64,000 bases of DNA from Turneriella parva DSM 21527 (lineage in GTDB: Bacteria > Spirochaetota > Leptospiria > Turneriellales > Turneriellaceae), in assembly GCF_000266885.1 (NCBI RefSeq), contig NC_018020.1, positions 1,736,001 to 1,800,000 on the forward strand, written 5' to 3'. This document shows, one piece after another, positions 14,870 to 44,207 of this stretch; position 1 is the stretch's first letter, and every line of letters begins with the position of its first letter. The notes beneath the pieces are model-generated. The model ran no database searches. It was given only the letters and a program-made list of their open reading frames with translations, and was not told where the DNA came from. Position numbers and translations under genes: made by a program.

Positions 14870-15970
14870 ATGGCGCGTTTGTTTCTGAAATCCTACCTTT
14901 TGCTGACGGTCATGTCTTTTTCTGCCGCCTCGTTACTTTTCAGTGATGCCCCAATAGGCCGCAACCTGGGTTTGCTCACCCCGGGCAAAGCTGTGAGTTT
15001 GCGGCTCAAAGATGATCAGGTTATCGCCGATGTCGAGCTGCAGAGCATCGACCAGAAATCGATCAGCTACAAGAAAGGCGCGATGGCGGTGAAGATTGAC
15101 CGCGATCTGGTTTTTCGCGCGCGCCAGGGCGATGCATTCTATTCTGATCTGGCGCTCACCGCCGAAGACCATGCTCGGTTCGGTGGCTACGTCGATTATA
15201 TTAATGAGCGGGGTGACATCATCGTTGATACCGAAGATGTGCAGTACATCGGCGTCATTACGGGCGAAGATGAAACGGTGATGACAATTCGCACCCGCAG
15301 CGCAAGCTACGATGTCGAGAAGCGCAAGATCGCCGCCTGGCGAAGGGGCGGTGTCTGGTCTGGCGATGAGAACGCGCGGCAAGAACCCAAAGGGTCAATC
15401 TTCGGCATGCAACCCTATCTTGATAAGAAGCGCACTTTCAATTATGCGCTGATGCTTTCGGGGCCGTGGTCTGTGCTGCCGCAATTCGGCCTGGGACTCA
15501 GTACAAATGTCAACTGGCCGGTATTCGGTGGCGTGCGCGGTTCGTTGGGTTACATCTTGGTTGACACCAACACATTTGGCATGATGGCGCAGGCGAGCGC
15601 TTACCTCAACGTCAACCTCATTGGCTTTGGCGCTTCGCGTCTCTTTGCCGGTTCAAGTTATATCTGGCGCGGGGGCATGGTGATGGATTATGCCTATGGC
15701 AGCACCGGGCCTTCATATCGTGGAAGCCAGGTGAATGGTACGATCACACAGAACACCTACTCGTTGCATCTCGGTCTCAAATACAAGAACCTCATGTTCG
15801 AGGGCGGCGTCGAGATGCCGATTTCATCGCGGCAAGATTTCGAGCGCCCGATGAACCCGCAGACCACAGATCTGGTTGAAATTGAGCGAGGGGTGGGCAG
15901 GGTCAAAAGTTCTCTCGATACCTTCGAGGGAATTTCGCGCGTTTATGCCAATATTTCGCTGATGTTCTGA
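14870..15970 (+). CDS. Outer-membrane beta-barrel protein of unknown function
   Basis: 366 residues. An N-terminal signal peptide (about residues 1-25, ending near FSDAP) is followed by a beta-rich domain of ~140 residues with alternating strands (VSLRLKDDQVIADVELQSID, RFGGYVDYINERGDIIVD), and then a C-terminal half built from amphipathic Gly/aromatic-rich strands ending in Phe (YANISLMF), the usual C-terminal barrel signal. An SD-like GAGGT lies just before the ATG at 14870. No family is recognised. It is divergent from the rhodanese/mnmA pair, 77 bases away, and precedes a DUF4180 gene by 20 bases. Confidence 0.75.
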   Translation: MARLFLKSYLLLTVMSFSAASLLFSDAPIGRNLGLLTPGKAVSLRLKDDQVIADVELQSIDQKSISYKKGAMAVKIDRDLVFRARQGDAFYSDLALTAEDHARFGGYVDYINERGDIIVDTEDVQYIGVITGEDETVMTIRTRSASYDVEKRKIAAWRRGGVWSGDENARQEPKGSIFGMQPYLDKKRTFNYALMLSGPWSVLPQFGLGLSTNVNWPVFGGVRGSLGYILVDTNTFGMMAQASAYLNVNLIGFGASRLFAGSSYIWRGGMVMDYAYGSTGPSYRGSQVNGTITQNTYSLHLGLKYKNLMFEGGVEMPISSRQDFERPMNPQTTDLVEIERGVGRVKSSLDTFEGISRVYANISLMF

Positions 15971-16825: not shown

Positions 16826-16940
16826 CAGATTCCGGAGAATAAAACCCGTTGGGGATATAATGCCCTTTTGAGCCTCGCGATGGCACTGGCGCGGGCGTCA
16901 TATTTGTTGACGCGTTGGCATGGGTGGGCTCTGTTCGCGC

Positions 16941-17354
16941 ATGAAAACCATCAAGCCGCGGTTCGTCTACCCACTCACCATTGTGTTATGGTTTTTTGCG
17001 ACTGGTTGCACGAATATCGACTTGCTCAGCAAGCTCGAAGCGCCGGGGGGTGGTGCCTCGTTCCGAAACATTCGGGTGGTGAGTACAAACATAGACCCGT
17101 CGCTAAACACTGGCGGCACCTTCAATGCTACCGTGACGTTTAGCGAGGCCGTGAACGTGCCCATAGGCTCTATCACCATCGATAACGGGGCTGCCCTCAC
17201 AAGCCTTGCATCGGTCGATAACATCACCTGGACATTTACACTCACTGGCCTGACGAATGCTACCTACAACGTGCAGTTTTCATCAAATATCAATGCCGTG
17301 AGCGGTGGCTCGTTGGCGCCGTTTACCGTGACGTTCACGCATACGGGGGTTTGA
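16941..17354 (+). CDS. Small lipoprotein with one SbsA/Big-like Ig domain
   Basis: 137 residues from ATG 16941. The signal peptide (MKTIKPRFVYPLTIVLWFFATGC) ends in a lipobox FATGC. After a short Gly/Ser tether there is one Ig-like beta-sandwich of about 95 residues with the pattern TFNATVTFSEAVNVPIGSITIDNGAA and NVQFSSNINAVSGGSLAPF, as in SbsA-like Ig repeats. Related domains occur in the giant lipoprotein at 21597. Probably a surface protein; function unknown. A TATAAT hexamer lies at 16856-16861 upstream but without a matching -35 box. It is convergent with the next gene. Confidence 0.75.
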   Translation: MKTIKPRFVYPLTIVLWFFATGCTNIDLLSKLEAPGGGASFRNIRVVSTNIDPSLNTGGTFNATVTFSEAVNVPIGSITIDNGAALTSLASVDNITWTFTLTGLTNATYNVQFSSNINAVSGGSLAPFTVTFTHTGV

Positions 17355-18617: not shown

Positions 18618-18782
18618 AGTTGTGCAACTGCTGATTTGTATTGCGTCGGTCAACTATTGAATTCAGCACGTTTGGGTTATATCGCAAATCGGCAACGCTC
18701 TCTCGATCGTTTGGGTTTTCTCCCTGTCTGATTAAAGATTGCCGTGCGGGAATATCTACAGTCACTGTCGCGTGAAAGGTTT

Positions 18783-20423
18783 ATGAGGCAGACTCTTTTC
18801 ACCTGTATCGTGTCCTTAATAATATCCGCGGCTCCGCTTTGGCCTGGCCAGATTGCTGGCGAAATCAATATCACTGCTGATGTTGAATTTATTGAAGATA
18901 TGCCGCCCCAACTGGCATTTGAACAGGTTGAGGCGCAGAAATCATTACCGTGGCAGCGTGTCGGAAAAAATGCAACGCATTTTGGGTTTTCAAGGTCGGC
19001 GTATTGGTTTCGCATTGATCTGAAGAAATTTGCGTCATTCGCGGCGCAGAAAAAGATATATGCAGTCTTCGCGTGGAAAGCCCTCGACTCGATTGAGGTC
19101 TTCTACCGCGATGCTGCCGGCAATACACAAAAGCAGATCGCGGGCGATGGTTACCCCAAATCAACGTGGAGCCTGCCAGAAACGCATTTTCCCGCGGTGC
19201 AGATACAGCCCGATCAGGTATCAGGCCGACTGCTGTTCATACGCCTGCAATCCACGTCGATTAAGAACTTTCCGATTCTGCTCAAGACCGAAGGCGCGTA
19301 CCTGCATGATCTCAAGCGTGAACTTACAATCATCGTCATCTATTCGACTATTACCCTCATTCTGATCGCGTTTGCTTTCTTTCTCTATGCCATATCGAGA
19401 GACATGAACTTTCTTTTGTACACGGGCTATCTAGTTTCGATTGCGCTGGCATTTGACACCACTTTTGGCAACGCGTTCGATCTTCTCTGGCCCAATTCAA
19501 CCTGGTGGCAGAACCGGGCCGGTTTTACCCTGGTCGGCGCGCAGATTATTTTTTCGACACTGTTCGTGAGCCGTCTGCTCGACTTTCGCAAGTTTCTGCC
19601 ACGCGCCGATTTCGTCTGCAATGCACTCGCAATTTTCTGTGCCATTAGCCTGCCCGTGAGTCTGCTCGACCTGCCCGTTGTGTGGTTCTCGACTCTATAT
19701 TCCCTGATCTATCTGGTTTCGATTCCGGCTTTTTTCGGCATCGGTATTTACCTCTTGCCGAAGAGCGGCCTGCACGTGCGCCTCTTCATCATCGGCTGGG
19801 CGATTCTTTTCTTTTTTGGAGTGTTTCACATTCTTTATCTGCGCAGCGTGCTCGAGTATTCGGGGTGGATTGTCTACGCAGCTGTTCTCATTTTCCCTGT
19901 CGACATTCTGTTCTTCTTCATGGCAGCATGGGAAAAGCAGCGCCTCGCCGACCGCGAGCGTTTGCGATTGCTCGATGAGAAGATGCAGGCATTGATCGCG
20001 CGAATGCCGGGTGAATCGAAGGCCAAATACCGCAAATCTTCGCTGACCGACGTCGACGTGCAGAGCACTCTCGCCCGGCTGAAGATTCTCATGGACGAAG
20101 AGAAAATTTACCTCATCGAAGATTTGCGCCTGCCCGATCTGGCCAAGACGCTCGGCCTCAACCGCACACAGCTTTCAGAACTTTTGAACAGCCACTTTCA
20201 GAAGAATTTTGCCAACTTTATCAACGAATACCGGGTGGGCGAGGCGCAACGCCTGCTCGTTGAGAATCCGCATGAAAATGTGCTCGATATAGCCTTCGCC
20301 ACGGGCTTCGGCTCAAAGGCGGCGTTTTCGACCGAATTCAAAAGGGTGACGGGCGTTACTGCGAAAGAATACCGCGAAAAAAATCTGCAAAAGGCGGCGA
20401 ATTTTGCGCAAAATAGGTCTTGA
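18783..20423 (+). CDS. 7TMR-DISM receptor fused to an AraC-type HTH (membrane-bound transcription regulator)
   Basis: 546 residues from ATG 18783 (MRQTLFTCIVSLIISA signal peptide). Residues ~25-175 form the periplasmic 7TMR-DISM extracellular domain 2 (AYWFRIDLKK, RLLFIRLQSTSIKNFPI). Residues ~180-390 hold seven membrane helices. After a short cytoplasmic linker with coiled-coil character (ADRERLRLLDEKMQALIARM), the last ~100 residues are an AraC/XylS DNA-binding domain: DLAKTLGLNRTQLSELLN and VLDIAFATGFGSKAAFSTEFKRVTGVTAKEYR. This architecture, common in Leptospira relatives, would sense an outside ligand, perhaps a carbohydrate, and act directly on DNA. It is 52 bases upstream of the barrel/giant-lipoprotein pair, which it may regulate. 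Confidence 0.92.
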   Translation: MRQTLFTCIVSLIISAAPLWPGQIAGEINITADVEFIEDMPPQLAFEQVEAQKSLPWQRVGKNATHFGFSRSAYWFRIDLKKFASFAAQKKIYAVFAWKALDSIEVFYRDAAGNTQKQIAGDGYPKSTWSLPETHFPAVQIQPDQVSGRLLFIRLQSTSIKNFPILLKTEGAYLHDLKRELTIIVIYSTITLILIAFAFFLYAISRDMNFLLYTGYLVSIALAFDTTFGNAFDLLWPNSTWWQNRAGFTLVGAQIIFSTLFVSRLLDFRKFLPRADFVCNALAIFCAISLPVSLLDLPVVWFSTLYSLIYLVSIPAFFGIGIYLLPKSGLHVRLFIIGWAILFFFGVFHILYLRSVLEYSGWIVYAAVLIFPVDILFFFMAAWEKQRLADRERLRLLDEKMQALIARMPGESKAKYRKSSLTDVDVQSTLARLKILMDEEKIYLIEDLRLPDLAKTLGLNRTQLSELLNSHFQKNFANFINEYRVGEAQRLLVENPHENVLDIAFATGFGSKAAFSTEFKRVTGVTAKEYREKNLQKAANFAQNRS

Positions 20424-20475: not shown

Positions 20476-21600
20476 ATGCAGGCTCCGATCTTCAAACTAC
20501 TTCTGTTGGCGCTCGCGAGCTCGGCTCTCGGTGCTGCCCGCCTGCCTCGGGTTATGGTGCTCGAGACCGTCAACCGCTCGGGCGACCCGAACCTCAAATA
20601 CCTCGAAGCCTCGATTTCTGACGCGATTCGCACCGAGCTGAAAAATCGCTTTCTGTTCACCGAAATACCCGTTGAACAGCGCAATGCGCTCGCCGAGAAG
20701 AACTACATCTTTCCGCAAGATTTTGATACCGAGACTGCAGCAGTGGCTTTGGGGCTTTTGGGCCGGCAAGATATCGTCGTGACCGGCAGCTTTCGCGGCA
20801 ATGCCGGTAACGCCCGCAGCATCATTGTCGAAATTCGCATCATCGGTGTGGGCGAGAAAAAAATTCTGAAGACGATCAGCCATAAGGCCGCGGTCGACAG
20901 CTCGGTCTTCAATACTTTGCAGAAAATTGCGACCGAATCGGCAATCGAAATGGAAAAGATTCTGCCGAGCAAAGACGAGTTCGCGCGCATCTCGCTGGCC
21001 GACAGTTTCTATGAGGGGGGATTAAACCAGGTGCTGGTGTCATTTGGCTTCGCACCGTCTCTTTTCGCCGCGTCAGGCGGTATCGCGACTGGTTCAGAAC
21101 TTTCGCCCAAAGATTTTAATAACCTTACCGTTCGCGCCGCTTACCGCCGCAATTCGGTTTACCGCGAAAATCTGTACCTCGAAGCACGCGGCAGCGTTGA
21201 TTTCGGTTCGAACAAATATGCATTAAAGCAAACTGAACTCAGCGATCTGAATCTGCCGGCGAGCCATTTGGGCTATCGTATCAGCGCGCCCGTGGGCATG
21301 CGTTTCGCCTTTTTCGGATCTCTTCTCGTACAACCCTATGTCGGCCCTGCGGCGGGCTTTGGCACCATCACCGTCGACGCCTCTTCAACCCAGCTTGTCG
21401 TCTATGACGCCAGCCGCAGCGCAGTGACTACGCTCAAAAAGAATTATGCGGGCATGGGTTTCATTTCAGGTGCCGACATCACGCTGCTCTTAAAATCAAA
21501 CGTGCAGATATTTACCGACATCGAATACCAAATGATTTTCGCCGACGGCGGCAGTTTTTTCACCCTGGGTTTTTTCATGGGAGCGGGGTATAGATTATGA
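20476..21600 (+). CDS. TolB/CsgG-like periplasmic domain fused to an outer-membrane beta-barrel (pair 1)
   Basis: 374 residues. Signal peptide MQAPIFKLLLLALASSALGA. Residues ~22-170 form an alpha/beta domain like the N-terminal TolB/CsgG/LpoB group: PRVMVLETVNRSGDPNLKYLEASISDAIRTELKN, DIVVTGSF, and a helix with ESAIEMEKILP. Residues ~180-374 are Gly/aromatic-rich amphipathic strands ending GAGYRL, an outer-membrane barrel. A paralogue with the same order is at 43056-44207, and both are followed, with an ATGA overlap, by a lipoprotein gene. The fused periplasmic domain could recruit or hand over the lipoprotein, with the barrel anchoring or translocating it. That model is inference; domain classes are from sequence pattern only. 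Confidence 0.75.
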   Translation: MQAPIFKLLLLALASSALGAARLPRVMVLETVNRSGDPNLKYLEASISDAIRTELKNRFLFTEIPVEQRNALAEKNYIFPQDFDTETAAVALGLLGRQDIVVTGSFRGNAGNARSIIVEIRIIGVGEKKILKTISHKAAVDSSVFNTLQKIATESAIEMEKILPSKDEFARISLADSFYEGGLNQVLVSFGFAPSLFAASGGIATGSELSPKDFNNLTVRAAYRRNSVYRENLYLEARGSVDFGSNKYALKQTELSDLNLPASHLGYRISAPVGMRFAFFGSLLVQPYVGPAAGFGTITVDASSTQLVVYDASRSAVTTLKKNYAGMGFISGADITLLLKSNVQIFTDIEYQMIFADGGSFFTLGFFMGAGYRL

Positions 21601-24600
21601 GAAACCTCACCCCCTCCGCTACGCTCCCCCCCCTCTCCTTAAGGAGAGGGGGTTGGGGGGTGAGGTTTGCCACCATTGTTATTCTTTCAGCGACCCACTG
21701 CGCCAAGCTGCCGACTGTCAACGAAACCTTCGAGCGTGCGCTCGGCAATTTTCGCCTCGGTGGTGCGGTAGTCGGCCTCGCCGGTCAAGGCCTGACGCTC
21801 AGCGCTAACGGCGGCAGTCCCCTTGCGATTACGCAAAATGGCAGCTACCAGTTCGATGTGGCGTTACGGGATAAATCCCCCTATGCCATCACGATTGCGC
21901 AACAGCCGCAAAACCCGAAGCAGACGTGTACGCTCTCGAATGCGAGTGGTGTGCTGCAGTCAGAAGCAATCAACAACGTCGACGTCAACTGCGTCAGCGC
22001 TCCGTTTCGGGTGGGCGGCACCGTGCTCGGGCTCATTGGCGGTTCGGTGAAAATTCAACTCAACGCCAGCGAAGAGTTGACGCTCAGCGCCAACGGCACG
22101 TTTCAATTCACGCAGACGATTGCCGACGGCACCATGTACAACGTGCAGGTGACGCAGAACCCAGGTTCGCCGGCGCAGACCTGCTCTGCGAGCAAGAACA
22201 AGGCGAACGTGCGCAGCAAAGACGTAACCGACGTCGCGATCGTCTGCGCGACGCAGAATTTCACTATTGGCGGTTTTGTCGCCGGACTCACCGGCTCGGG
22301 GCTCAAACTCTCGCTCAACGGCGGCCCTGACCTCACAGCCGCCGCAGGCTTCTTTACATTTCCGCAGGTGATCGCCGACAATTCGGCATTCAACGTGCAG
22401 ATCACGACGCAGCCCACCAACCCCGCGCAGACCTGCACCGTGAGCAACAACCAGAATATTCTGCAGGGCGGTAACATAACCAACGTGCAGGTGCAGTGCG
22501 GCAGCCAGTCTTATGCGGTTTCGGGCACAGTGACGGGCCTCGTCGGGCAGGGGTTCACCTTGCAGATTAATGGCGGCTCAGAGCTGCTCGTCGGTGCCAA
22601 TGGCGCGATTACTTTTCCCGCTATGGCCGATGGCTCGGCCTACAATGTGCAGGTGCTCTCGCAACCGACGTTGCCCACGCAGGTGTGCGGCGTCGTGAAC
22701 AACAAGGGCACTATAGCCGGCGCTGCGGTCACCGATGTGCAGGTGATCTGTTCAGTACAGGCATACCAGATTTCGGGTTATATCGCCGGGCTTTCGGGCG
22801 GCACCGTGACACTCGTCAACAATGAGAACAACGACGAGATCATGAATGTCGGCAACGGCTTCTTCAACTTTGCCCGGCTGATACCCGACGGCAGCGCCTA
22901 TTCGGTTGCCGTGAAAAACCAACCGCTGAGCCCGCTGCAGTTTTGTTCGATCTTGAACAGCACGGGTGCGATCAGCGGCGGCAGCGTCGGTAATATCTTC
23001 GGCTATTGCCAGCTTGCGTACCAGGTCGGTGGCACGGTGACGGGTCTTGCGGGGCAGGGGCTTGCGTTGCAGATCAATGGCACCGAAATCAAAACCATTG
23101 CCACGAACGGCAGCTATAACTTCACCTATGGCCTGCCCGGCGCCGCAACCTATTCGGTGCAGGTGCTGAACAACCCGAAGGGCCTCAGCCAAACCTGCGT
23201 CGTTACGAATGGTTTCGGTACGATGCCTTCTTCAGCGGTGAGCAATGTCAACATCAGCTGCACCACAGACTATTTTGCGGTAACGGGTACCGTGCGCGGT
23301 CTTGCTGGCAATGGCCTCACGCTGCAGAACAATGGTGCTAACGATGTCGTACTCAACACCACCGGCGCAGACATCAATTTTGCTTTTGCGACCCAGATCG
23401 ATGGTTCGGGTTACGACATCACGATTCTGAATCAACCTTCGAGCCCGCCGCAGAATTGTATCGTTTCGGCTTCGGGCACTTCGGCCTCGGGTACTGTATC
23501 GGGTGGCAACAAAACAGGCCTCTTGATCGATTGCGCGCCCGATGCGCCAGGGCAACCTGATCTTCTGGCTGCAGACGACAGTGGTAGCAGCGACAGCGAT
23601 AATATCACGAACCGAACGACGGCATTGACGTTTCAGGGTAATGCCGAAGCAAATTCAACGGTGACGCTGATGAATGGCGCTACACAAATCGCCACGACGA
23701 CTGCGAACGGCTCAGGTTTCTGGCAGGTCGACGTTAACCTCACCGAAGCAGTCTATAACCTGACTGCACGAGCAACCAATGCCGCTGGCTTCACCTCTGC
23801 CGACAGCCCGGCACTTCTGGTGACAGTAGACGTGACAGCACCCCTCGTACCGACAATTCCCGATCTTCAAGATGCCGACGACACCGGAACATCTGTGCTA
23901 GACGACAGAACCAATGTTACAACAAACCTGACATTCACCGGCAACGGCGAATCGGGGCAATTAGTGCAATTGCTCGAAGGTGCGACCATACTGGGCTCGG
24001 GGCTTGCAACCGGCGGCACCTATACTATCGATCTGGCGCTCGCCGCTGGTATACGCAACATCACCGCGCGCGTCATGGATGCCGCCGGTAATATTAGCGG
24101 CGCTTCGCTGCCGCTCAGCGTCACGATCGACACAACGGCCCCCACTGTGGCGCTCAGCTACAACCAGAGCGGCAATACGACGGGCCCCTTTGCCGCGGGT
24201 AGTCTCACCGTCACCGCCACTTACAGCGAGGCGCCCAATGGAACGCCAAACATTACGGTTGATCAACCGGGATCTTCAGATGTTACCACGGCCATGCTCC
24301 CGACGGCAAACCCTCTCGTATTCACTTACACCTACACGGTGACGGCTGATAATGGTGGCGCCTTCCAGGACGGCACAGCCACCGTGAGCCTCAGTGCGAC
24401 CACGGATACCGCGGGAAATTCGTCGCAGGCCCCCACGAACGCAAGCTTCGGTATTGCAACTGCAGGTCCCGCCATCACCTCGGCCGTGCTCGCGAACAGC
24501 AATGCATACATCGACGTAACATTCAGCTCGGGCGTATACACGAACAGTGGCCCGCCCTCGGGAGCCGTGCACACGGGGGATTTTCTATTGGATTTTTCAG

Positions 24601-27600
24601 CCAATGCCGGCCCCGCGAGCGGTGCAACCATCAGCTCGGTGAAAAAACCCGACAACACAGTAGAGGCATCGGCGTCTGCTCTCACGGGCGGTGAAACCGT
24701 TGTGCGCTTCTTTCTCGCAATTACGTGTAGTCCCCCGGTACCCTGCAATCCGTCAGGGGCTGAGACGATTAACATTCGAATGTTTGATGCCAACTCCATC
24801 TATGACCTATCGAACAACCCGGCAAAGGCATCCGTGGCAACCGGCGCAAAATTTCTGTTCGATAAGAAAGTGCCGACGATTACAGCGGTAACGCCCAATA
24901 CGGTGCTCAAAGACAGTAATGTCGGTTCGGTAAGCGTCAGCATCACTTTCAGCGAGGCGATGGACACGACATTCAATCCGTCGCAGACATTGACCGTCGG
25001 CGCGACACCGTACACAATTACGGGTTCAAGCTGGAGCGTCGGCAACACGGTCTGGACAGGATCATTCGCTTTCACCGACCTCAATGCGACAGCGACGGGT
25101 AGCTATACAATCAGTGGCTTTCGCGATATTGCGAGCAATGTGATCGCTACCAACACAAGTTACACGATCAATGTTGATACGCAGAATCCCGTCTTTTCAG
25201 CGGTTGCGCCTGCGAATTCAGCGAGCGCCAATACGACTGCTGTCAGCTACACACTTTCAGAAGCCTTGCAGGCCGGCACCGTCACGTGGACCCGTACGGG
25301 CGGTAGTACAGACGGCTCCTCGCCGCACACCCAAACTCTAGTGCCCGCTGAGCTCGCGAGCGGCACGTTCAGCGGTGTTCTAACCAACCCGCCGACTCTA
25401 GTGAGCGGTGCGGTCTATACGATCACTTTCAACGGCAGCGATGCCAATGGCAATGCCGCACCGACCGTCACGCGCACTGGTTTCACCTTCGACACCTCGA
25501 AACCCACGGTGAGTTCGGTTTCGGTAACAGCCCTTCGAGACGCCGATGTCGGATCAAAAAGTGTCAGCATTACTTTCAGTGAAGCGATGAACACCGCTGT
25601 GAATCCCTCGCCGACAATTACCGGACTTGCATCTGCATACACCATCACCGGCTCAGCGTGGTCAGTCGGCAACACAGTTTGGACAGGTGCGTTTACCTTC
25701 ATCGATAACAACGAAGCTGCAACGGGTACCTACAATATCAGCACCTTTCAAGATGCGCAGGGCAATGTCATGAATGCCGATACCGCGCGCACGGTTACTG
25801 TCGACACCCGAAACCCGGCGATTACCGGTAGAACATTGCATTCGCAAAATAACTATATCGACGTGACCTTTGACCAGGGTGTTTATACCAATAGTGCCGG
25901 CGCGGGTGCGCTCATCGTTTCTGACCTCGTGCTGACCTTTACGCAAAATGGCGGTGGGGCAACAGCGGCGACGATCGCTTCGGTCACGAAAACCACGGGC
26001 AGCGCTTTGACGGGGGGAGAAACAACGATACGCTGCAATCTTTCCATTACCGGCACCGCAACTGGCGTCGAGACCATCACCGTGAGGCCTGCGGCGTCGC
26101 AGATCTTTGACAGCGTCGGCAATGCCGCGCCGATCACGACGGTGACTGCTTCGATAAACCTGAACCCGGGAGATATATTGCCCCCGACCATCACTCTTGT
26201 CCAGACTCTCGATTCTAACGGCAATGGCCGCATAGACGCGTACAAAATAACGTTTAGCGAAAACATTGTCGATTCAAGTTTTCCCGGATTTACGGCCAAC
26301 AACAACCTCGGCACGGTCACGACCGCGTGGCTCGTGGCAGGCTACACCAACGTGCAACTCGCCCACGGCACAACAGCGCCCACGGGTCAAACCGATGTGC
26401 TCAACGACAACGTCATCTACCTGAAATTTTCAGAATTCGCTAATGGATACGATACCGGCGCCAAGCCAGACCTGACGACGACCGCCTCGCCCGGCGTCAA
26501 AGACCTCGCGAATAATACCATGGCGCAGCTCTTCACGGCAACGGTTACCGAATCTGACACAGCAGCGCCGATTATCACAGCGGCCGAAGGCACAGTGGGA
26601 TATAACCGCGTGTGGCTGGCATTTTCTGAAGCGGTGGATAACTCTGCGGCCATCGGCTGCCTCACAACCATTACGCAAACGGCCTTGTCTTATAACAATA
26701 TCGCTGCGGGCGGGGCAACCGCGGTTAGTGCGACACCCTGGGACGATGAAAACGGCTGCGATGCGTTGGTGCGGTTCAACACCAATGCCAACCTGCTGAC
26801 GGCCGATGCCAATGGTTCGGGCGACAGGGTCGGGGCGGCCTCAGCAACCGCAATCTACGACGCGGCCGGCAATGCGATGACGACAACGCAGGTATCGCTC
26901 ACGGCGTCTGCCGGCGTCTTCACCGCGCTCTACCCCACCAACGGCCTCAACTGGATGGACTACATCAGAAACAACGGCACGACCGTGTTTAACGCGAATT
27001 CGACCGCCTGCACCGGCAGCGAAACCGGCGGCTATTACAAGTGTCTGCATGGCGGCGCAATGCGCGTTGAGTCTCTACCGACCGGCAACACAGACTGCAC
27101 GGGTGTCACGGCGATCGATTCATTGGATGCGTTTAATTGGGTGTGCGATACATCCACCAACCCGGTGCGCATGGTATCGACGGCGCTCAATGAGACGAAG
27201 AACCTGAGCGACCTAATCGATTGGGGTACGTGTGGGGGCACCGATCTTTCACCGTGTAAATGGAAGCAGATGACGCTGCGCATCTTTCGCAATGGCAATG
27301 AAATCAAAGTAACGCCGCCTCGCTATTGGGCGGCGAACAATATCGTGAGGCGAGTGGTGAGCGGTATTCCTGTTTCACTCAACACCAGCGGTACCATTCA
27401 CGTCATCATGACCAATACAGACGCTACCTTCAGTATCTCCGCAAAAAATGCCCTGGTCGTGCAATCAGGTAGCAAGGTCGCCAACACGACGAACAACCCC
27501 GTCGTTGGAGGCGGCAGCGCCGACTTCTCGTGGATTGAAGGCGAATTTGAGCAGCAGAACACGGGAAATGCCTGCTTTCGCGTCGGCGGTAAATTTCAGG

Positions 27601-29684
27601 TGGTGAGAAATGCCAGTGCACGCGGGCTCAATTCACCGTCTTTCAGAATTCAAACCAGCGCCGATAATGTTTTATTGTTTAACACGGCGGTGGGATACTC
27701 GCCGAGCTCTGAAAATTATCTATTGGATAGCCCAAATTACGCCACGCTTACCAAAATTCGCGGCGCGAACACGACCGTAAAACTTTTTGATACAGGGGGC
27801 ACAGGATCGGTTATCCATAACGCGCTGGGTATTGGCGCAGGTAGCCAGGGCATAGCTGCCACGAGCGGCATCAATGTCACAGTGCTGAATTCAACAGTCG
27901 GTATGCTTACGGGTGCAGGCTTCACCGGCTCTGCGACAAATGGTGGCGGAGTATTGATGAATTTCTTGAGTGCGCAAACCGGTTCGTCGGGCATAACGCA
28001 GGCAAACACGAAATTTTCGCACCTGAATATAGCGGCGGCGCACGCGGCGACGAGCGGCGTTCTGGTGCAGAATACCGCCGCGCATTACTGGGGTGGTCTA
28101 TTGCGCTTCGGCAGCAACACCGGTAAGAATTGTGACACCTCGGCAACGACAGCGACGCTTGCAGGCCTCGTTGACACAACTTGTGCCAATGGTGGTGCCT
28201 CCGATGCAACCTTCACATCGGGTATCACCATGGCCGGCACATTCGTTGGCAGGGTGACCACCAATGATGCGGTGAATACCTCAGATACGAACGGCACTGC
28301 GCCCTTTGCCTCGGGGAACAATTGGCTGAACTTTGCCAATGACTACCGCCTTTGGGGAAAAGACGGCACAGCTATCACCGATAGCACTACACGCGGATCT
28401 TGCACCAGTGGTACCTGCCGCATTTGGGATATGCGGCTGACCTCGACTGATACGGGAGCGGGCGGGGCGGCCGTCGCTTACAATGTCAACGCGCTGCCTT
28501 ATGGCAATCAGGCATACTCACACGCCTGGTATTCAGCGACTGCCCCCACGGCACAAAGTTCGTGCGATAACTACGCGGCGATCGGTTCTACTTTCGTCGC
28601 TAGCGGGGGAGCGTGTTCGTACCCAGGTTATAAAACCAACAGTGCCTGCACGGGCGCCACCGGTAACTGGTCAGCAGCGAAGTGCGTTTCTACTTTCATA
28701 CCTAATGCCACCGAGTTTATCGGCGACGGCGTCGGCAACGAGAACGGTCTTTGCGAATCGAATGAAGTCTGCCTGTTCACACCGAATATCGGCGCTTATC
28801 AGGGCGAAGAGACGAACCCAACGGTCAACTGCCCGGCAGGCACCACCTACCGCTGGTGGGGAAAAACTTATTGTAAAGAAAACTTCATCGACGGAACAGT
28901 CGCCGGAGTCACGTTGCTGCGCTTTGATACCAACGGAATCGATGGTTCGGGCAACCCTGTTGCCTGGACGCCACGAATGCTACCGATATCTATGGACAGC
29001 GTCAGATGGTGGCTCGATGCCTCTCAGGGCGCCTACAGCGATGCCGGCGCCACGCTCGCCTCGAACGGTCAGACAGTACAACAATGGAACGACCAGAGTG
29101 GTGGCGCCCGCCACGGATCATCGGCTACCGCTGGCAATCGGCCAACCTATGTCACCGGAGCGATCAACGGCCGACCCGTGTTGCGGTTTGACGGTACTTC
29201 AGACCAGCTGTCGTTTAACGGTAATTTTTTTCTAAACACAGCATACACATTGATTGTTGTCGCAAAAATCACCAGCAATAAGGCAGATAACTGGTTTCTT
29301 GCAGGTGATACCAACGACGCCAATGCAGAACTGCGGTTGGGCTTCTTGAGTACTTCTTCGTTTCAGCTGGGTCAGGGCAGCAATTCATTGGCCGTGACAG
29401 AATCGGCGAGCGGCAACGCCGACATTTATCTCGGTAGTCTCAACACATCAACGGGCCGGGCGATAAGAAAAAACGGAACCTTGCTCACCAGCGATGCCAA
29501 CACCAGTACGGTCTATTCATACACGAATTCACGCATAGGCAGAAGAGGCGCGGGATTTTTCTTTCAGGGCGATATTGCCGAAATTATCGCGTTTAACAAA
29601 GAGCTGAGCCAGACTGAACGCGAGATGGTGCAGTGTTACCTCGGCAAAAAGTACAGTATTGCGCTGAGCCACAGCTGCCCATGA
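21597..29684 (+). CDS. Giant (2695-residue) repeat lipoprotein, surface-exposed
   Basis: Starts at ATG within ATGA, overlapping the barrel gene. Residues 3-24 come from a palindromic DNA element, followed by the rest of a signal peptide with lipobox-like SATHC near residue 35. Residues ~50-650: seven ~83-residue repeats (GG/SG-xVxGLxGxGLxLxxNG ... YxVQVxxQPxxPxQTC ... VxNVxVxC), two Cys each. Residues ~655-830: two Ig-like repeats with DDSGSS/DDTGTS openings. Residues ~840-1780: SbsA/Big-like Ig repeats. Residues ~1790-2300: beta-helix-like Asn/Gly/Thr region. Residues ~2470-2690: LamG-like lectin fold opening WWLDAS..AYSDAG and ending FNKELSQTEREMVQCYLGKKY. The layout resembles an adhesin or carbohydrate-binding surface fibre. 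No frameshift seen over 8 kb. Base composition like neighbours. Confidence 0.85.
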   Translation: MRNLTPSATLPPLSLRRGGWGVRFATIVILSATHCAKLPTVNETFERALGNFRLGGAVVGLAGQGLTLSANGGSPLAITQNGSYQFDVALRDKSPYAITIAQQPQNPKQTCTLSNASGVLQSEAINNVDVNCVSAPFRVGGTVLGLIGGSVKIQLNASEELTLSANGTFQFTQTIADGTMYNVQVTQNPGSPAQTCSASKNKANVRSKDVTDVAIVCATQNFTIGGFVAGLTGSGLKLSLNGGPDLTAAAGFFTFPQVIADNSAFNVQITTQPTNPAQTCTVSNNQNILQGGNITNVQVQCGSQSYAVSGTVTGLVGQGFTLQINGGSELLVGANGAITFPAMADGSAYNVQVLSQPTLPTQVCGVVNNKGTIAGAAVTDVQVICSVQAYQISGYIAGLSGGTVTLVNNENNDEIMNVGNGFFNFARLIPDGSAYSVAVKNQPLSPLQFCSILNSTGAISGGSVGNIFGYCQLAYQVGGTVTGLAGQGLALQINGTEIKTIATNGSYNFTYGLPGAATYSVQVLNNPKGLSQTCVVTNGFGTMPSSAVSNVNISCTTDYFAVTGTVRGLAGNGLTLQNNGANDVVLNTTGADINFAFATQIDGSGYDITILNQPSSPPQNCIVSASGTSASGTVSGGNKTGLLIDCAPDAPGQPDLLAADDSGSSDSDNITNRTTALTFQGNAEANSTVTLMNGATQIATTTANGSGFWQVDVNLTEAVYNLTARATNAAGFTSADSPALLVTVDVTAPLVPTIPDLQDADDTGTSVLDDRTNVTTNLTFTGNGESGQLVQLLEGATILGSGLATGGTYTIDLALAAGIRNITARVMDAAGNISGASLPLSVTIDTTAPTVALSYNQSGNTTGPFAAGSLTVTATYSEAPNGTPNITVDQPGSSDVTTAMLPTANPLVFTYTYTVTADNGGAFQDGTATVSLSATTDTAGNSSQAPTNASFGIATAGPAITSAVLANSNAYIDVTFSSGVYTNSGPPSGAVHTGDFLLDFSANAGPASGATISSVKKPDNTVEASASALTGGETVVRFFLAITCSPPVPCNPSGAETINIRMFDANSIYDLSNNPAKASVATGAKFLFDKKVPTITAVTPNTVLKDSNVGSVSVSITFSEAMDTTFNPSQTLTVGATPYTITGSSWSVGNTVWTGSFAFTDLNATATGSYTISGFRDIASNVIATNTSYTINVDTQNPVFSAVAPANSASANTTAVSYTLSEALQAGTVTWTRTGGSTDGSSPHTQTLVPAELASGTFSGVLTNPPTLVSGAVYTITFNGSDANGNAAPTVTRTGFTFDTSKPTVSSVSVTALRDADVGSKSVSITFSEAMNTAVNPSPTITGLASAYTITGSAWSVGNTVWTGAFTFIDNNEAATGTYNISTFQDAQGNVMNADTARTVTVDTRNPAITGRTLHSQNNYIDVTFDQGVYTNSAGAGALIVSDLVLTFTQNGGGATAATIASVTKTTGSALTGGETTIRCNLSITGTATGVETITVRPAASQIFDSVGNAAPITTVTASINLNPGDILPPTITLVQTLDSNGNGRIDAYKITFSENIVDSSFPGFTANNNLGTVTTAWLVAGYTNVQLAHGTTAPTGQTDVLNDNVIYLKFSEFANGYDTGAKPDLTTTASPGVKDLANNTMAQLFTATVTESDTAAPIITAAEGTVGYNRVWLAFSEAVDNSAAIGCLTTITQTALSYNNIAAGGATAVSATPWDDENGCDALVRFNTNANLLTADANGSGDRVGAASATAIYDAAGNAMTTTQVSLTASAGVFTALYPTNGLNWMDYIRNNGTTVFNANSTACTGSETGGYYKCLHGGAMRVESLPTGNTDCTGVTAIDSLDAFNWVCDTSTNPVRMVSTALNETKNLSDLIDWGTCGGTDLSPCKWKQMTLRIFRNGNEIKVTPPRYWAANNIVRRVVSGIPVSLNTSGTIHVIMTNTDATFSISAKNALVVQSGSKVANTTNNPVVGGGSADFSWIEGEFEQQNTGNACFRVGGKFQVVRNASARGLNSPSFRIQTSADNVLLFNTAVGYSPSSENYLLDSPNYATLTKIRGANTTVKLFDTGGTGSVIHNALGIGAGSQGIAATSGINVTVLNSTVGMLTGAGFTGSATNGGGVLMNFLSAQTGSSGITQANTKFSHLNIAAAHAATSGVLVQNTAAHYWGGLLRFGSNTGKNCDTSATTATLAGLVDTTCANGGASDATFTSGITMAGTFVGRVTTNDAVNTSDTNGTAPFASGNNWLNFANDYRLWGKDGTAITDSTTRGSCTSGTCRIWDMRLTSTDTGAGGAAVAYNVNALPYGNQAYSHAWYSATAPTAQSSCDNYAAIGSTFVASGGACSYPGYKTNSACTGATGNWSAAKCVSTFIPNATEFIGDGVGNENGLCESNEVCLFTPNIGAYQGEETNPTVNCPAGTTYRWWGKTYCKENFIDGTVAGVTLLRFDTNGIDGSGNPVAWTPRMLPISMDSVRWWLDASQGAYSDAGATLASNGQTVQQWNDQSGGARHGSSATAGNRPTYVTGAINGRPVLRFDGTSDQLSFNGNFFLNTAYTLIVVAKITSNKADNWFLAGDTNDANAELRLGFLSTSSFQLGQGSNSLAVTESASGNADIYLGSLNTSTGRAIRKNGTLLTSDANTSTVYSYTNSRIGRRGAGFFFQGDIAEIIAFNKELSQTEREMVQCYLGKKYSIALSHSCP
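21602..21668. repeat. Palindromic element inside the signal-peptide coding region of the giant lipoprotein
   Basis: Outer arms AAACCTCACCCC (21602-21613) and GGGGTGAGGTTT (21657-21668) are a perfect 12-bp inverted repeat. An inner perfect palindrome, CCCCTCTCCTT with its complement, occupies 21630-21651. The architecture (outer C-rich arm, spacer, inner C/T palindrome) matches the element in mnmA at 14290-14346. It is read through in frame and adds about 22 residues before the hydrophobic core of the signal peptide. Confidence 0.85.
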
Positions 29685-41710: not shown

Positions 41711-42253
41711 CTATCTACAGCAAGCCACCGGGATAGAAGAACTACAAGCATTCGACACGAAGCCAGTATTTAGCACCGCTGGCCCGACTGGGCCCGCCGT
41801 GCTAGTTGTCCAACGATTACAGTCAAAATAGGTAGCACCATTGAAACCTACGCTTATCCACTTTGTGGTGCCAAGATCTGTTCCGCTTTGAAGTTCTATC
41901 AAAATTTCATGAACCGTGCACATGTGCGCATTGGTATCAGAGCAAGCTGTTTGACAAAGAGTCTTTGCAGCTGCGTAGCTGCCGATGTTCCCATTTGTCG
42001 CGGTGCTTGCGCCGCAGTATGAACCTAAGCGCTGGGACATGCCCGTATACAGCGCATCAAAGTTCTGATTCATCTCAGTCGCTGAGACGACACCACCGTT
42101 TGTGAATGTGAACGGCTTAGTAATGGGTGCAGCCCATATTGCCACGGCACCTATCAACGCCAGAAAGAAGGTCGTGGTCTTTCGATGGTTTTTTAGCCAG
42201 AGTATTGTTCTGCCGGTGTATTTACCCGGCTCGATTGTGATGTGTATTTTCAT
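41711..42253 (-). CDS. Cys-rich secreted protein with SATEMNQNF motif
   Basis: 180 residues. Signal anchor/peptide near residues 25-42 (KTTTFFLALIGAVAIWA), then FTFTNGGVVSATEMNQNFDALYTGM, a motif seen at the start of many secreted or phage-tail-like Leptospirales proteins. The rest has eight Cys (YCGAS, LCQTACSD, MCTV, FDCNRW, NACSSS, ACC) and ends PVACCR, so it should be disulfide-rich. It lies 17 bases after the barrel/lipoprotein pair and is on the same strand. Might be another exported component of that module. Function unknown. Confidence 0.65.
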   Translation of the reverse strand: MKIHITIEPGKYTGRTILWLKNHRKTTTFFLALIGAVAIWAAPITKPFTFTNGGVVSATEMNQNFDALYTGMSQRLGSYCGASTATNGNIGSYAAAKTLCQTACSDTNAHMCTVHEILIELQSGTDLGTTKWISVGFNGATYFDCNRWTTSTAGPVGPAVLNTGFVSNACSSSIPVACCR

Positions 42254-42270: not shown

Positions 42271-43059
42271 TTAATTTGAATAAGTACAGGTTCCGTAAAC
42301 ACCGTTACCATAAGTGCAGGCACTCCCACCACTGACGACAAAGGCTGAGCTACCGGCTGTGCTCAAATTACCCTTTGCATCGCGAACAATCCATCTAAGA
42401 GTCGCGCTCGATGAGATTGTGACGGTAGCAGTTTTCCCCGCGACGACCGTGCCATTGCCTGTGAAATTCGGCGTTGAACCATCGGTGGTATATGCTATCG
42501 CATTGCAAGCGACGTTGTCGCTGCACGATAGAGTGACTGTTTGAGCGCTTGAGAACGTGCCGCCCGCATTGTTGGTCGAGGTGGTCGGCACTGTCGCGTC
42601 GGCGTAGATTTGGGTGAGAATACTATTATCAACGGAAGTTCCGTCAGATGAGTTAAACCCTGTCGGCGTGCCGCTGCTGTTGGTTGTGACTGCGACGTTG
42701 CCAGAGGTTGCATTGCCATTGGGGTTGCCCGTGCTGAGGTAGAAGTTGCCCTTGAGGTCGACGCTCAGATAATAGTCGATTGTACCATCGCCGTTGGTGT
42801 CGAGGCCAGACCATTTGCCAGCGACGAGCGACAAGAACAGAATTTCGGGCACGCCGTCTCCGTTGAGGTCGAGGCCGTCGGCGATGCCGTCACCCGTCAT
42901 GTCGATCATTGTACCGGGTACGGTGCCACCACCGGCTTTGGGCAGCTGCACGGTGGTGCCGGGCTTGAATGCGTTCGTCGAAGCGTCGGTAAAAGCCCCT
43001 TCAAAACCACGGCACGCAAGAGCCAGTGGCATTAAAGCCAAAAATATAATTATTCTCAT
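42271..43059 (-). CDS. Lipoprotein with EF-like Ca loops and chitobiase-type domain (pair 2)
   Basis: 262 residues. Signal peptide MRIIIFLALMPLALAC ends at the lipobox LALAC. Residues ~50-90 contain three acidic Asp/Gly loops (DMTGDGIADG, DLNGDGVPE, DTNGDGTID), dockerin/EF-hand-like calcium sites. Residues ~165-245 resemble a chitobiase/beta-hexosaminidase C-terminal (CHB_HEX) Ig-like domain (FSSAQTVTLSCSDNVACNAIAYTTDGSTPNFTGNG). The two Cys pairs are probably disulfides. It overlaps the barrel gene by ATGA (43056-43059), the same arrangement as 21597. This would be the smaller counterpart of the giant lipoprotein. Confidence 0.78.
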   Translation of the reverse strand: MRIIIFLALMPLALACRGFEGAFTDASTNAFKPGTTVQLPKAGGGTVPGTMIDMTGDGIADGLDLNGDGVPEILFLSLVAGKWSGLDTNGDGTIDYYLSVDLKGNFYLSTGNPNGNATSGNVAVTTNSSGTPTGFNSSDGTSVDNSILTQIYADATVPTTSTNNAGGTFSSAQTVTLSCSDNVACNAIAYTTDGSTPNFTGNGTVVAGKTATVTISSSATLRWIVRDAKGNLSTAGSSAFVVSGGSACTYGNGVYGTCTYSN

Positions 43060-44207
43060 ATTCTGTACCCCGCTCCGAGTCCGACCGAAAGCAATTTCAA
43101 AGTCGTATCCGCATCAAAGAGAAACTGTTGTTGTATCTGCACGGCGATGCTAAGATTCTTGTGCACGAAAAAATCCGTGATGAACCCGCCTGAAACAGCC
43201 GGTACCATGTAGTTGATATCGTAGCTTGTCTTAATGGTGCCCGCCGCCGCACCACCAGCCACGTATGGTCGAATCTGCGTTTCTTGAACCCAGCCCCACT
43301 TCTTGGGTATGATAAAGGCGTAAGTCAGACCGCCCGAAAAATCAAAGGCCGACATCTTATCGATTTGCGTTTTGCCTGTAGTCAAAGCGAATGAAGTGGC
43401 AAAGTAGGGTTGAACAAAACGGTGCAAAAATTTAAAACTTGTATTGAAAGACCCGCCGAGCCCCAGAGCCAGAAATTTGCTTTCGAAGCCCCAGGTTACC
43501 GCTGCGTTTGCCATGCCATGAAAAATGAAATCTTTCGCAATAAACAAGCCACTATCTTGATAGACAACTCGCTGGGTCAGCGGCGGTAATTTCTCAGCCA
43601 TCTCTTGAGTCATGTCATCGGCGAGTGCATTGATATTATCAAAAATCTTTGCATCGAGTTTTGCGGTTCTTGATTTGCTGAGCGCGAGGCGTTTTTCAGC
43701 AACATCGACTGCCTTGGCCTGAATTTGTACAGTTGGCTCTACTGCCACAAAGCTACCCATGACAACGACATCGGCGCCTGTGGCTTCACCTATTTGAATT
43801 GCGGTTTCTTCGCTAAATGTCTGCTCTTTGCTGATGTTCCTTTCTTTGAGAATCTTATCTGCCGTTGAGCGAGGTAGAATCTCAAACTTACGGGTTTTCT
43901 TGAGTGGGTCGATCAGTGCTTCTGCAATCGTGACCGAAAGATATTCGGCGTTAACATTCTTTTGGCGGTTTACAAAATCTAGAATCAAGACGCGTCGCGC
44001 AATCGACGGCTGCTGCGCCACGATATTTAAGAGGGGCAAGAAGCAACATATGATACCAGTAAAAATAATACGAGATTGACGGATAAAGCCGCGCGCCTGA
44101 ATGCTAAATATCTTCCCTAAGCCATAGAAACGAAAGTGGATACTGCCCCCTTGCGGGCCATTATGGAAGGCCCTGCCTTTAGGCTCGTATCCAACACAAT
44201 ACCACAA
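43056..44207 (-). CDS. TolB/CsgG-like domain fused to outer-membrane barrel (pair 2)
   Basis: Up to 383 residues. Paralogue of 20476-21600: after a hydrophobic segment ending LLNIVAQQ, the domain ARRVLILDFVNRQKNVNAEYLSVTIAEALIDPLKKT, ADVVVMGSF and a following helix match the TolB/CsgG/LpoB-like fold; the last ~200 residues are barrel strands ending GAGYRI. The only normal start codon in frame is a TTG at 44205-44207, which lies inside the palindromic element 44182-44273 and gives an odd ~45-residue leader; no ATG, GTG or TTG lies just before the signal peptide. The true start may be non-canonical or the element may have displaced it. Overlaps the lipoprotein gene by ATGA. Confidence 0.72.
   Translation of the reverse strand: MWYCVGYEPKGRAFHNGPQGGSIHFRFYGLGKIFSIQARGFIRQSRIIFTGIICCFLPLLNIVAQQPSIARRVLILDFVNRQKNVNAEYLSVTIAEALIDPLKKTRKFEILPRSTADKILKERNISKEQTFSEETAIQIGEATGADVVVMGSFVAVEPTVQIQAKAVDVAEKRLALSKSRTAKLDAKIFDNINALADDMTQEMAEKLPPLTQRVVYQDSGLFIAKDFIFHGMANAAVTWGFESKFLALGLGGSFNTSFKFLHRFVQPYFATSFALTTGKTQIDKMSAFDFSGGLTYAFIIPKKWGWVQETQIRPYVAGGAAAGTIKTSYDINYMVPAVSGGFITDFFVHKNLSIAVQIQQQFLFDADTTLKLLSVGLGAGYRI

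Follow-up and report, generated by a model that had tools for sequence, protein, structure and literature searches.

A family of TolB/LpoB-like barrel proteins paired with lipoproteins in Turneriella parva and its order: candidate dedicated membrane partners

In Turneriella parva and its relatives, genes coding for a protein made of a TolB/LpoB-like domain and an eight-stranded barrel (hereafter A) are mostly followed by a gene coding for a lipoprotein (B). Computational analysis established the domain make-up of these proteins, their pairing, their expansion and taxonomic limits, and a covariation between A and the residues that follow the lipid-modified cysteine of B, referred to here as the tether. 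Our inference is that A acts as a dedicated receptor or anchor in the outer membrane, recognising the N-terminal tether of B. The proposal that A is the dedicated membrane partner of B in a two-gene module, docking its tether, is given an even chance. A wider proposal is put forward more tentatively and should be regarded as somewhat improbable as a whole: an undescribed docking system of one spirochete order, in which about 20 partners per genome would each read the address peptide of their own lipoprotein, with swapped payloads and exchangeable membrane parts (an 8-stranded barrel or a DUF5683-like helical domain).

The window analysed is a stretch of 64,000 nucleotides from T. parva DSM 21527, spanning positions 1736001-1800000 of contig C1. 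The genome searched here comprises two contigs and 4,409,302 bases, and the published genome is likewise of 4,409,302 bases (PMC3746428). The window carries two such pairs, A/B and A'/B', whose features are the following.

20476-21600, plus strand: gene A, 374 aa, with signal peptide, TolB/LpoB/CsgG-like domain and 8-stranded barrel
20542-20970, plus strand: TolB-D1/LpoB/GNA1162-like periplasmic domain of A, about residues 23-165, from model and Foldseek
21028-21597, plus strand: 8-stranded OmpA/OmpX-type barrel of A, about residues 185-374, from model and Foldseek
21597-29684, plus strand: gene B, 2695-aa lipoprotein, ATGA overlap with A, alternative start GTG at 21660
21603-21668, plus strand: palindromic repeat element in the 5' end of B (signal-peptide n-region or leader), 12 genome sites, fold -48 kcal/mol
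21699-21767, plus strand: lipid-modified Cys (residue 35) and proposed docking tether of B, next 22 residues AKLPTVNETFERALGNFRLGGA
21744-23546, plus strand: seven Cys-paired repeats of B, Cys 111/132, 196/217, 280/301, 364/385, 450/471, 534/555 and 621/646
23556-23831, plus strand: Ig-like (Big_13) domain of B, best stretch, Pfam E=5e-25
29190-29618, plus strand: weak LamG/concanavalin-like C-terminal domain of B
42271-43059, minus strand: gene B', 262-aa lipoprotein (FG-GAP-like, CHB_HEX_C_1), ATGA overlap with A'
42946-43014, minus strand: lipid Cys and proposed tether of B', C RGFEGAFTDASTNAFKPGTTVQ
43056-44207, minus strand: gene A', second TolB/CsgG-like and 8-stranded barrel protein, 5' start uncertain

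The first-pass annotation had read the ATGA overlap of A and B, the same order and 4-base overlap in A'/B', the paralogy of the two first genes and the lipoboxes of the lipoproteins, and all four readings hold. The homology of A and A' extends over 178 aa (28%, E=1.2e-13), and the lipoboxes are directly legible as ATHC|AKLP and PLALAC|RGF. It had also proposed a TolB/CsgG-like domain fused to an outer-membrane barrel, and had staked the pairing beforehand on the second half of A being a beta-barrel, a test that the pairing survived. Both halves could be modelled and matched in the PDB. AlphaFold2, run on alignments of family members, returned for A (pLDDT 81, pTM 0.52) and for A' (pLDDT 84, pTM 0.45) an alpha/beta domain of TolB/LpoB type and, after it, eight long strands; given the low pTM, each single domain is reliable while their relative placement is not. 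Among PDB structures, Foldseek matched A to OmpA (2.9e-8), TolB (5.9e-8), Ail (6.9e-8), LpoB (1.5e-6) and OmpX, and A' to TolB, Ail, NspA, LpoB and GNA1162. A' also matches the Pfam family CsgG (2e-9); A has no Pfam match, its kinship to CsgG being one of fold only (TolB, LpoB). A lipobox is absent from both. In the relatives a second subclass of A (subclass II) keeps the common N-domain but ends in a DUF5683-like helical part, with no recognised barrel.

A 7TMR-DISM membrane receptor with an AraC-type HTH domain (window 18744-20423) ends 52 bp upstream of A and may regulate the pair from the membrane. At locus L022, a response regulator (226 aa) is encoded directly upstream of another A copy. 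Window 14870-15970 codes for an apparent outer-membrane barrel protein of 366 aa with an N-terminal soluble domain and the C-terminus ANISLMF; it has no Pfam match and is not an A homolog.

The architecture first described for B was retained in part. The seven Cys pairs are present, spaced by 21 residues in six cases and by 25 in one, and so are the Ig-like Big_13 domains; the LamG-like domain is weak, its Laminin_G_3 match (E=0.0036) falling below the Pfam cutoff, and the beta-helix-like region found no support. The start of B is ambiguous, since the in-frame GTG at 21660, downstream of the palindrome, yields a complete and compact lipoprotein signal, MRFATIVILSATHC. The palindromic element (core in the first 21 codons, CCCCTCTCCTTAAGGAGAGGGG) adds about 19 in-frame codons, and, judging from that compact signal, it looks as if it had been inserted into the original start region of B. 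Small secreted proteins are encoded downstream of the pair in two copies (window 41711-42253 and L022 10842-11381), with an apparently common N-terminal pattern, FTNGGVVSATEMNQNFDAL and WSSGETLTAADLNQTVQSL respectively; they are a possible third component. Across the family the payloads of B, i.e. what follows the tether, are diverse: DUF5122 propellers, fn3, Big_5, NHL, Lcl_C, DUF1554/Len-like, RCC1, FGE-sulfatase, CHB_HEX_C_1, Ig-like and LamG-like domains, or no known domain.

The A family is expanded in T. parva and restricted in range. T. parva carries at least 22 A paralogs; 27 matches were obtained at E<1e-6, some of which are fragments. A truncated copy (106 aa, L023 13557-13877) directly precedes an intact A and is a degraded tandem duplicate. 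The order of T. parva is represented by 18 genomes (T. parva and 17 relatives, GTDB-style grouping), those of the relatives being partly draft metagenome assemblies. A threshold of E<1e-22 recovered the full family from every genome of the order (18/18) and from none of 30 others in the class. Of the 159 Spirochaetota sampled, 12 matched at E<1e-45, and these 12 all belong to the order. An extension of the family across the Leptospirales was rejected, as Leptospira-type genomes gave weak N-domain matches only; full-length A proteins turned up in a single order of the class Leptospirae only. A related-locus search yielded no conserved stretch from the alignment, and no confirmed match with A alone as query.

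The pairing with lipoprotein genes was scored with a home-made rule, which counts A as paired when an ORF carrying a lipoprotein signal follows it at -120 to +200 bases. In a first set from T. parva and relatives, 38/60 testable A homologs were followed by a lipoprotein gene, 15 of these genes lying at -4 and 4 at -1, against 27/363 genes under the same rule in 20 random 20-kb stretches of T. parva (odds ratio 21, Fisher p=2e-21). In a second set of 40 loci, fetched after the first, a lipoprotein follows 26/41 homologs. That A homologs elsewhere would mostly be followed by a lipoprotein start, as the first-pass annotation had required, was borne out twice against a background of 7-13%; a control on secreted-protein genes gave 15/117 (odds ratio 11.8). 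Pooled over T. parva and 17 relatives, 64/101 A homologs are paired (p=1e-30), and 16/22 in T. parva alone. The misses of the second set, when read by eye, include several further lipoproteins that had escaped the rule (L121, L142, L143, L129_29). About a third of the A homologs have no adjoining lipoprotein, e.g. L024_14 (before purF), L027_5 and L031_4; the neighbours of the T. parva copies, on reading, are lipoproteins or unrelated genes.

One T. parva copy, L025_8 (L025 10009-11976), is a natural fusion of A and B whose reading frame is open over 655 codons. Its A part is 86% identical to the A of relative L045. Its B part begins at mature residue 17 and is 46-78% identical to the split partners, A and B being separate genes in the relatives. 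The signal peptide, the cysteine and 16 tether residues are missing, and the junction lies at a common GAG. A designed fusion was rejected, as L025_8, set against the split relatives, proves to stem from a deletion between two GAG stretches; this origin proves adjacency more than function, and L025_8 may be a decaying gene. The payload is placed after the last barrel strand. Both ends of an 8-stranded barrel normally face the periplasm, so the payload of L025_8 would be periplasmic if the fusion works.

This topology bears on two alternatives to docking. In the first, which is unlikely, the pair is an envelope sensor: B would face the periplasm with A as its outer-membrane receptor, and the complex would monitor the envelope or ligands, as in OmpA-RcsF and Tol-Pal. 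The suggested periplasmic payload agrees with a sensor, as do the N-domain, folded like TolB and LpoB (which partner Pal and PBP1B in the periplasm), and the upstream AraC-type receptor and response regulator genes. However, payloads such as the 2695-aa Ig-like and LamG-like protein or the propellers resemble surface adhesins rather than periplasmic sensors, and every payload is different.

In the second alternative, which we hold improbable, A would be to its lipoprotein what Slam is in function, a dedicated translocator or flippase that brings its own B to the surface through or along the barrel. The gene logic is that of Slam, 185/353 (~52%) of whose homologs adjoin a lipoprotein gene (PMC5449769), the payloads include families known as Leptospira surface proteins (LenA/B-like), and lipoprotein flipping in spirochetes is largely an open question (PMC11784454). 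On the other hand, 8-stranded barrels have no lumen for a polypeptide, whereas Slam has 14 strands and TPRs. An export pore is made less likely by the narrowness of the barrel and by subclass II, whose A proteins are devoid of a recognisable one; the T. parva fusion carries its payload after the last strand, normally on the periplasmic side. The first-pass annotation had left open whether the barrel protein is an exporter or an anchor: an anchor fits these observations, while a dedicated exporter fits them poorly.

An indication of specificity comes from the tethers. The first 22 residues after the lipid cysteine were compared between B proteins without BLAST similarity beyond mature residue 40. 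Tether pairs with z>3 amount to 1-2% at A identity below 20%, 13% at 30-40% and 47% above 40%, against 1% in control lipoproteins. At A identity >=0.30, tether similarity rises with A identity in a permutation test that keeps the pair structure (p=0.0002 for all pairs, p=0.0055 for barrel-type pairs only), and no such trend was found for signal peptides (p=0.54) or residues 23-44 (p=0.33). With the DHIPGQD subclass (described below) removed, a modest tether signal is left (p=0.008 at A identity >=0.30, not significant at >=0.25). Among the few barrel-type pairs at A identity >=0.40, signal peptides also resemble each other (p=0.03), which indicates some shared descent, and the covariation could stem in part from the shared descent of adjacent DNA. 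Nevertheless, on the DNA the signal peptide separates the tether from A, and it does not track A at >=0.30, so that co-inheritance of neighbouring DNA is not a ready explanation.

A sharply defined tether is that of the lipoproteins paired with subclass II A proteins, e.g. CDYFSYGHVPHRSDHIPGQDTP, whose payloads differ (RCC1, fn3+FGE, CHB_HEX, fn3). The degenerate DNA pattern for DHI[PA]G[QKR]D occurs at six sites in 13 genomes (~42 Mb), and 6/6 sites fall in a B gene adjoining a subclass II A, one of which the lipoprotein rule had missed. The reversed pattern gave 0 sites in the same search. As subclass II A proteins are not barrels, the term outer-membrane partner may not hold for all A proteins.

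A tether common to the whole family was not obtained. An aromatic motif at +9..+11 was rejected as a universal tether: defined post hoc in the first set, it held weakly in a fresh set (8/26 against 4/42, p=0.046). In 22 non-redundant tethers, an EM motif search scored 62.5 against 51.5 +/- 2.5 for shuffles, with more restarts given to the real set, and revealed no single clear motif. A small Ig-like lipoprotein in the window (16920-17354, CTNIDLLSKLEAPGGG...) has no adjoining A homolog and a tether resembling that of an A-linked lipoprotein of L032 (CTNIGLADYLENPAS); by this resemblance it is a candidate user of an A in trans.

That A and B are gene neighbours only, i.e. envelope genes duplicated in blocks whose tether similarity was inherited with the adjoining A, has little probability: paralog expansion and tandem copies as in L023 do show block duplication, and tether resemblance fades below ~30% A identity, but payloads were exchanged while pairing and tether persisted, the signal peptides, although nearer to A, do not track it at >=0.25 or >=0.30, and DHIPGQD is confined to B genes beside A.

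In the preferred reading, that of docking, the barrel of A would sit in the outer membrane with its TolB/LpoB-like domain in the periplasm. This domain, possibly together with the barrel, would recognise the ~20 residues that follow the lipid-modified cysteine of B, and this recognition would capture, anchor and position B at the outer membrane. Conjectural elements of this scheme are physical binding, the part of A involved, the side of the membrane, and whether B is retained, placed or licensed for the surface. Docking would depend on the tether, which stays constant, while the remainder of B, such as adhesin-like or propeller domains, would be a payload open to swapping. One A would serve one B, the overlapping genes ensuring that both partners are made together, and duplication would have given about 20 copies of the module, their tethers matched.

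The destination of spirochete lipoproteins and their arrival at the surface are a long-standing open question. About 20 matched pairs of partner and lipoprotein, with a short candidate address peptide, make part of this sorting question directly testable. Turneriella colonises the tissue of Hydra and takes part in tumour formation there (PMC7081986), which renders its envelope proteins of biological interest.

In the open-licence literature, no described system with the A-B layout was found. Two-partner secretion (TpsB/TpsA) was rejected, POTRA domains and a 16-stranded barrel being absent from A and A'. The family of CsgG, LpoB, TolB-N, FlgO and GNA1162 resembles the N-domain, by Pfam and structure for A' and by structure for A; its members are lipoproteins or soluble, however, and none of those matched carries a fused OmpA-type barrel. 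The CsgG pore is built from inserted hairpins, and an identity of A or A' with the curli channel was rejected, both having a separate C-terminal 8-strand barrel and no lipobox. Membership of the OmpA family was also rejected: A has the 8-stranded barrel but no C-terminal OmpA-like peptidoglycan-binding domain in Pfam, and the protein ends at strand 8. The likeness to OmpA-RcsF is that of an 8-stranded barrel with a periplasmic domain partnering an outer-membrane lipoprotein; in Escherichia coli it is the periplasmic domain of OmpA, not the barrel, that binds RcsF (PMC7553776), which is a precedent for docking. In contrast to A-B, OmpA-RcsF is neither a gene pair nor a family of matched copies, and the periplasmic domain of OmpA is of another fold and C-terminal. 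For spirochete surface lipoproteins, the Borrelia LptD homolog, a general route of flipping, is the only one so far proposed, as cited in PMC11784454; from that citation it would be one general machine, unlike the dedicated gene pairs described here. Slam is close in layout, with an N-terminal periplasmic domain, a C-terminal outer-membrane barrel and diverse payloads (PMC5449769, PMC9090332), a lipoprotein gene adjoining ~52% of its homologs (PMC5449769) as compared with 64/101 for A. A and A' have no DUF560 and no TPR match in Pfam, and membership of Slam was rejected on these domain grounds: Slam consists of TPRs and a 14-stranded DUF560 barrel, A of a TolB/LpoB-like domain and eight strands. 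Slam was surveyed in Proteobacteria, whereas in the A-B pairs of this spirochete order specificity appears to reside in the N-terminal tether of the lipoprotein.
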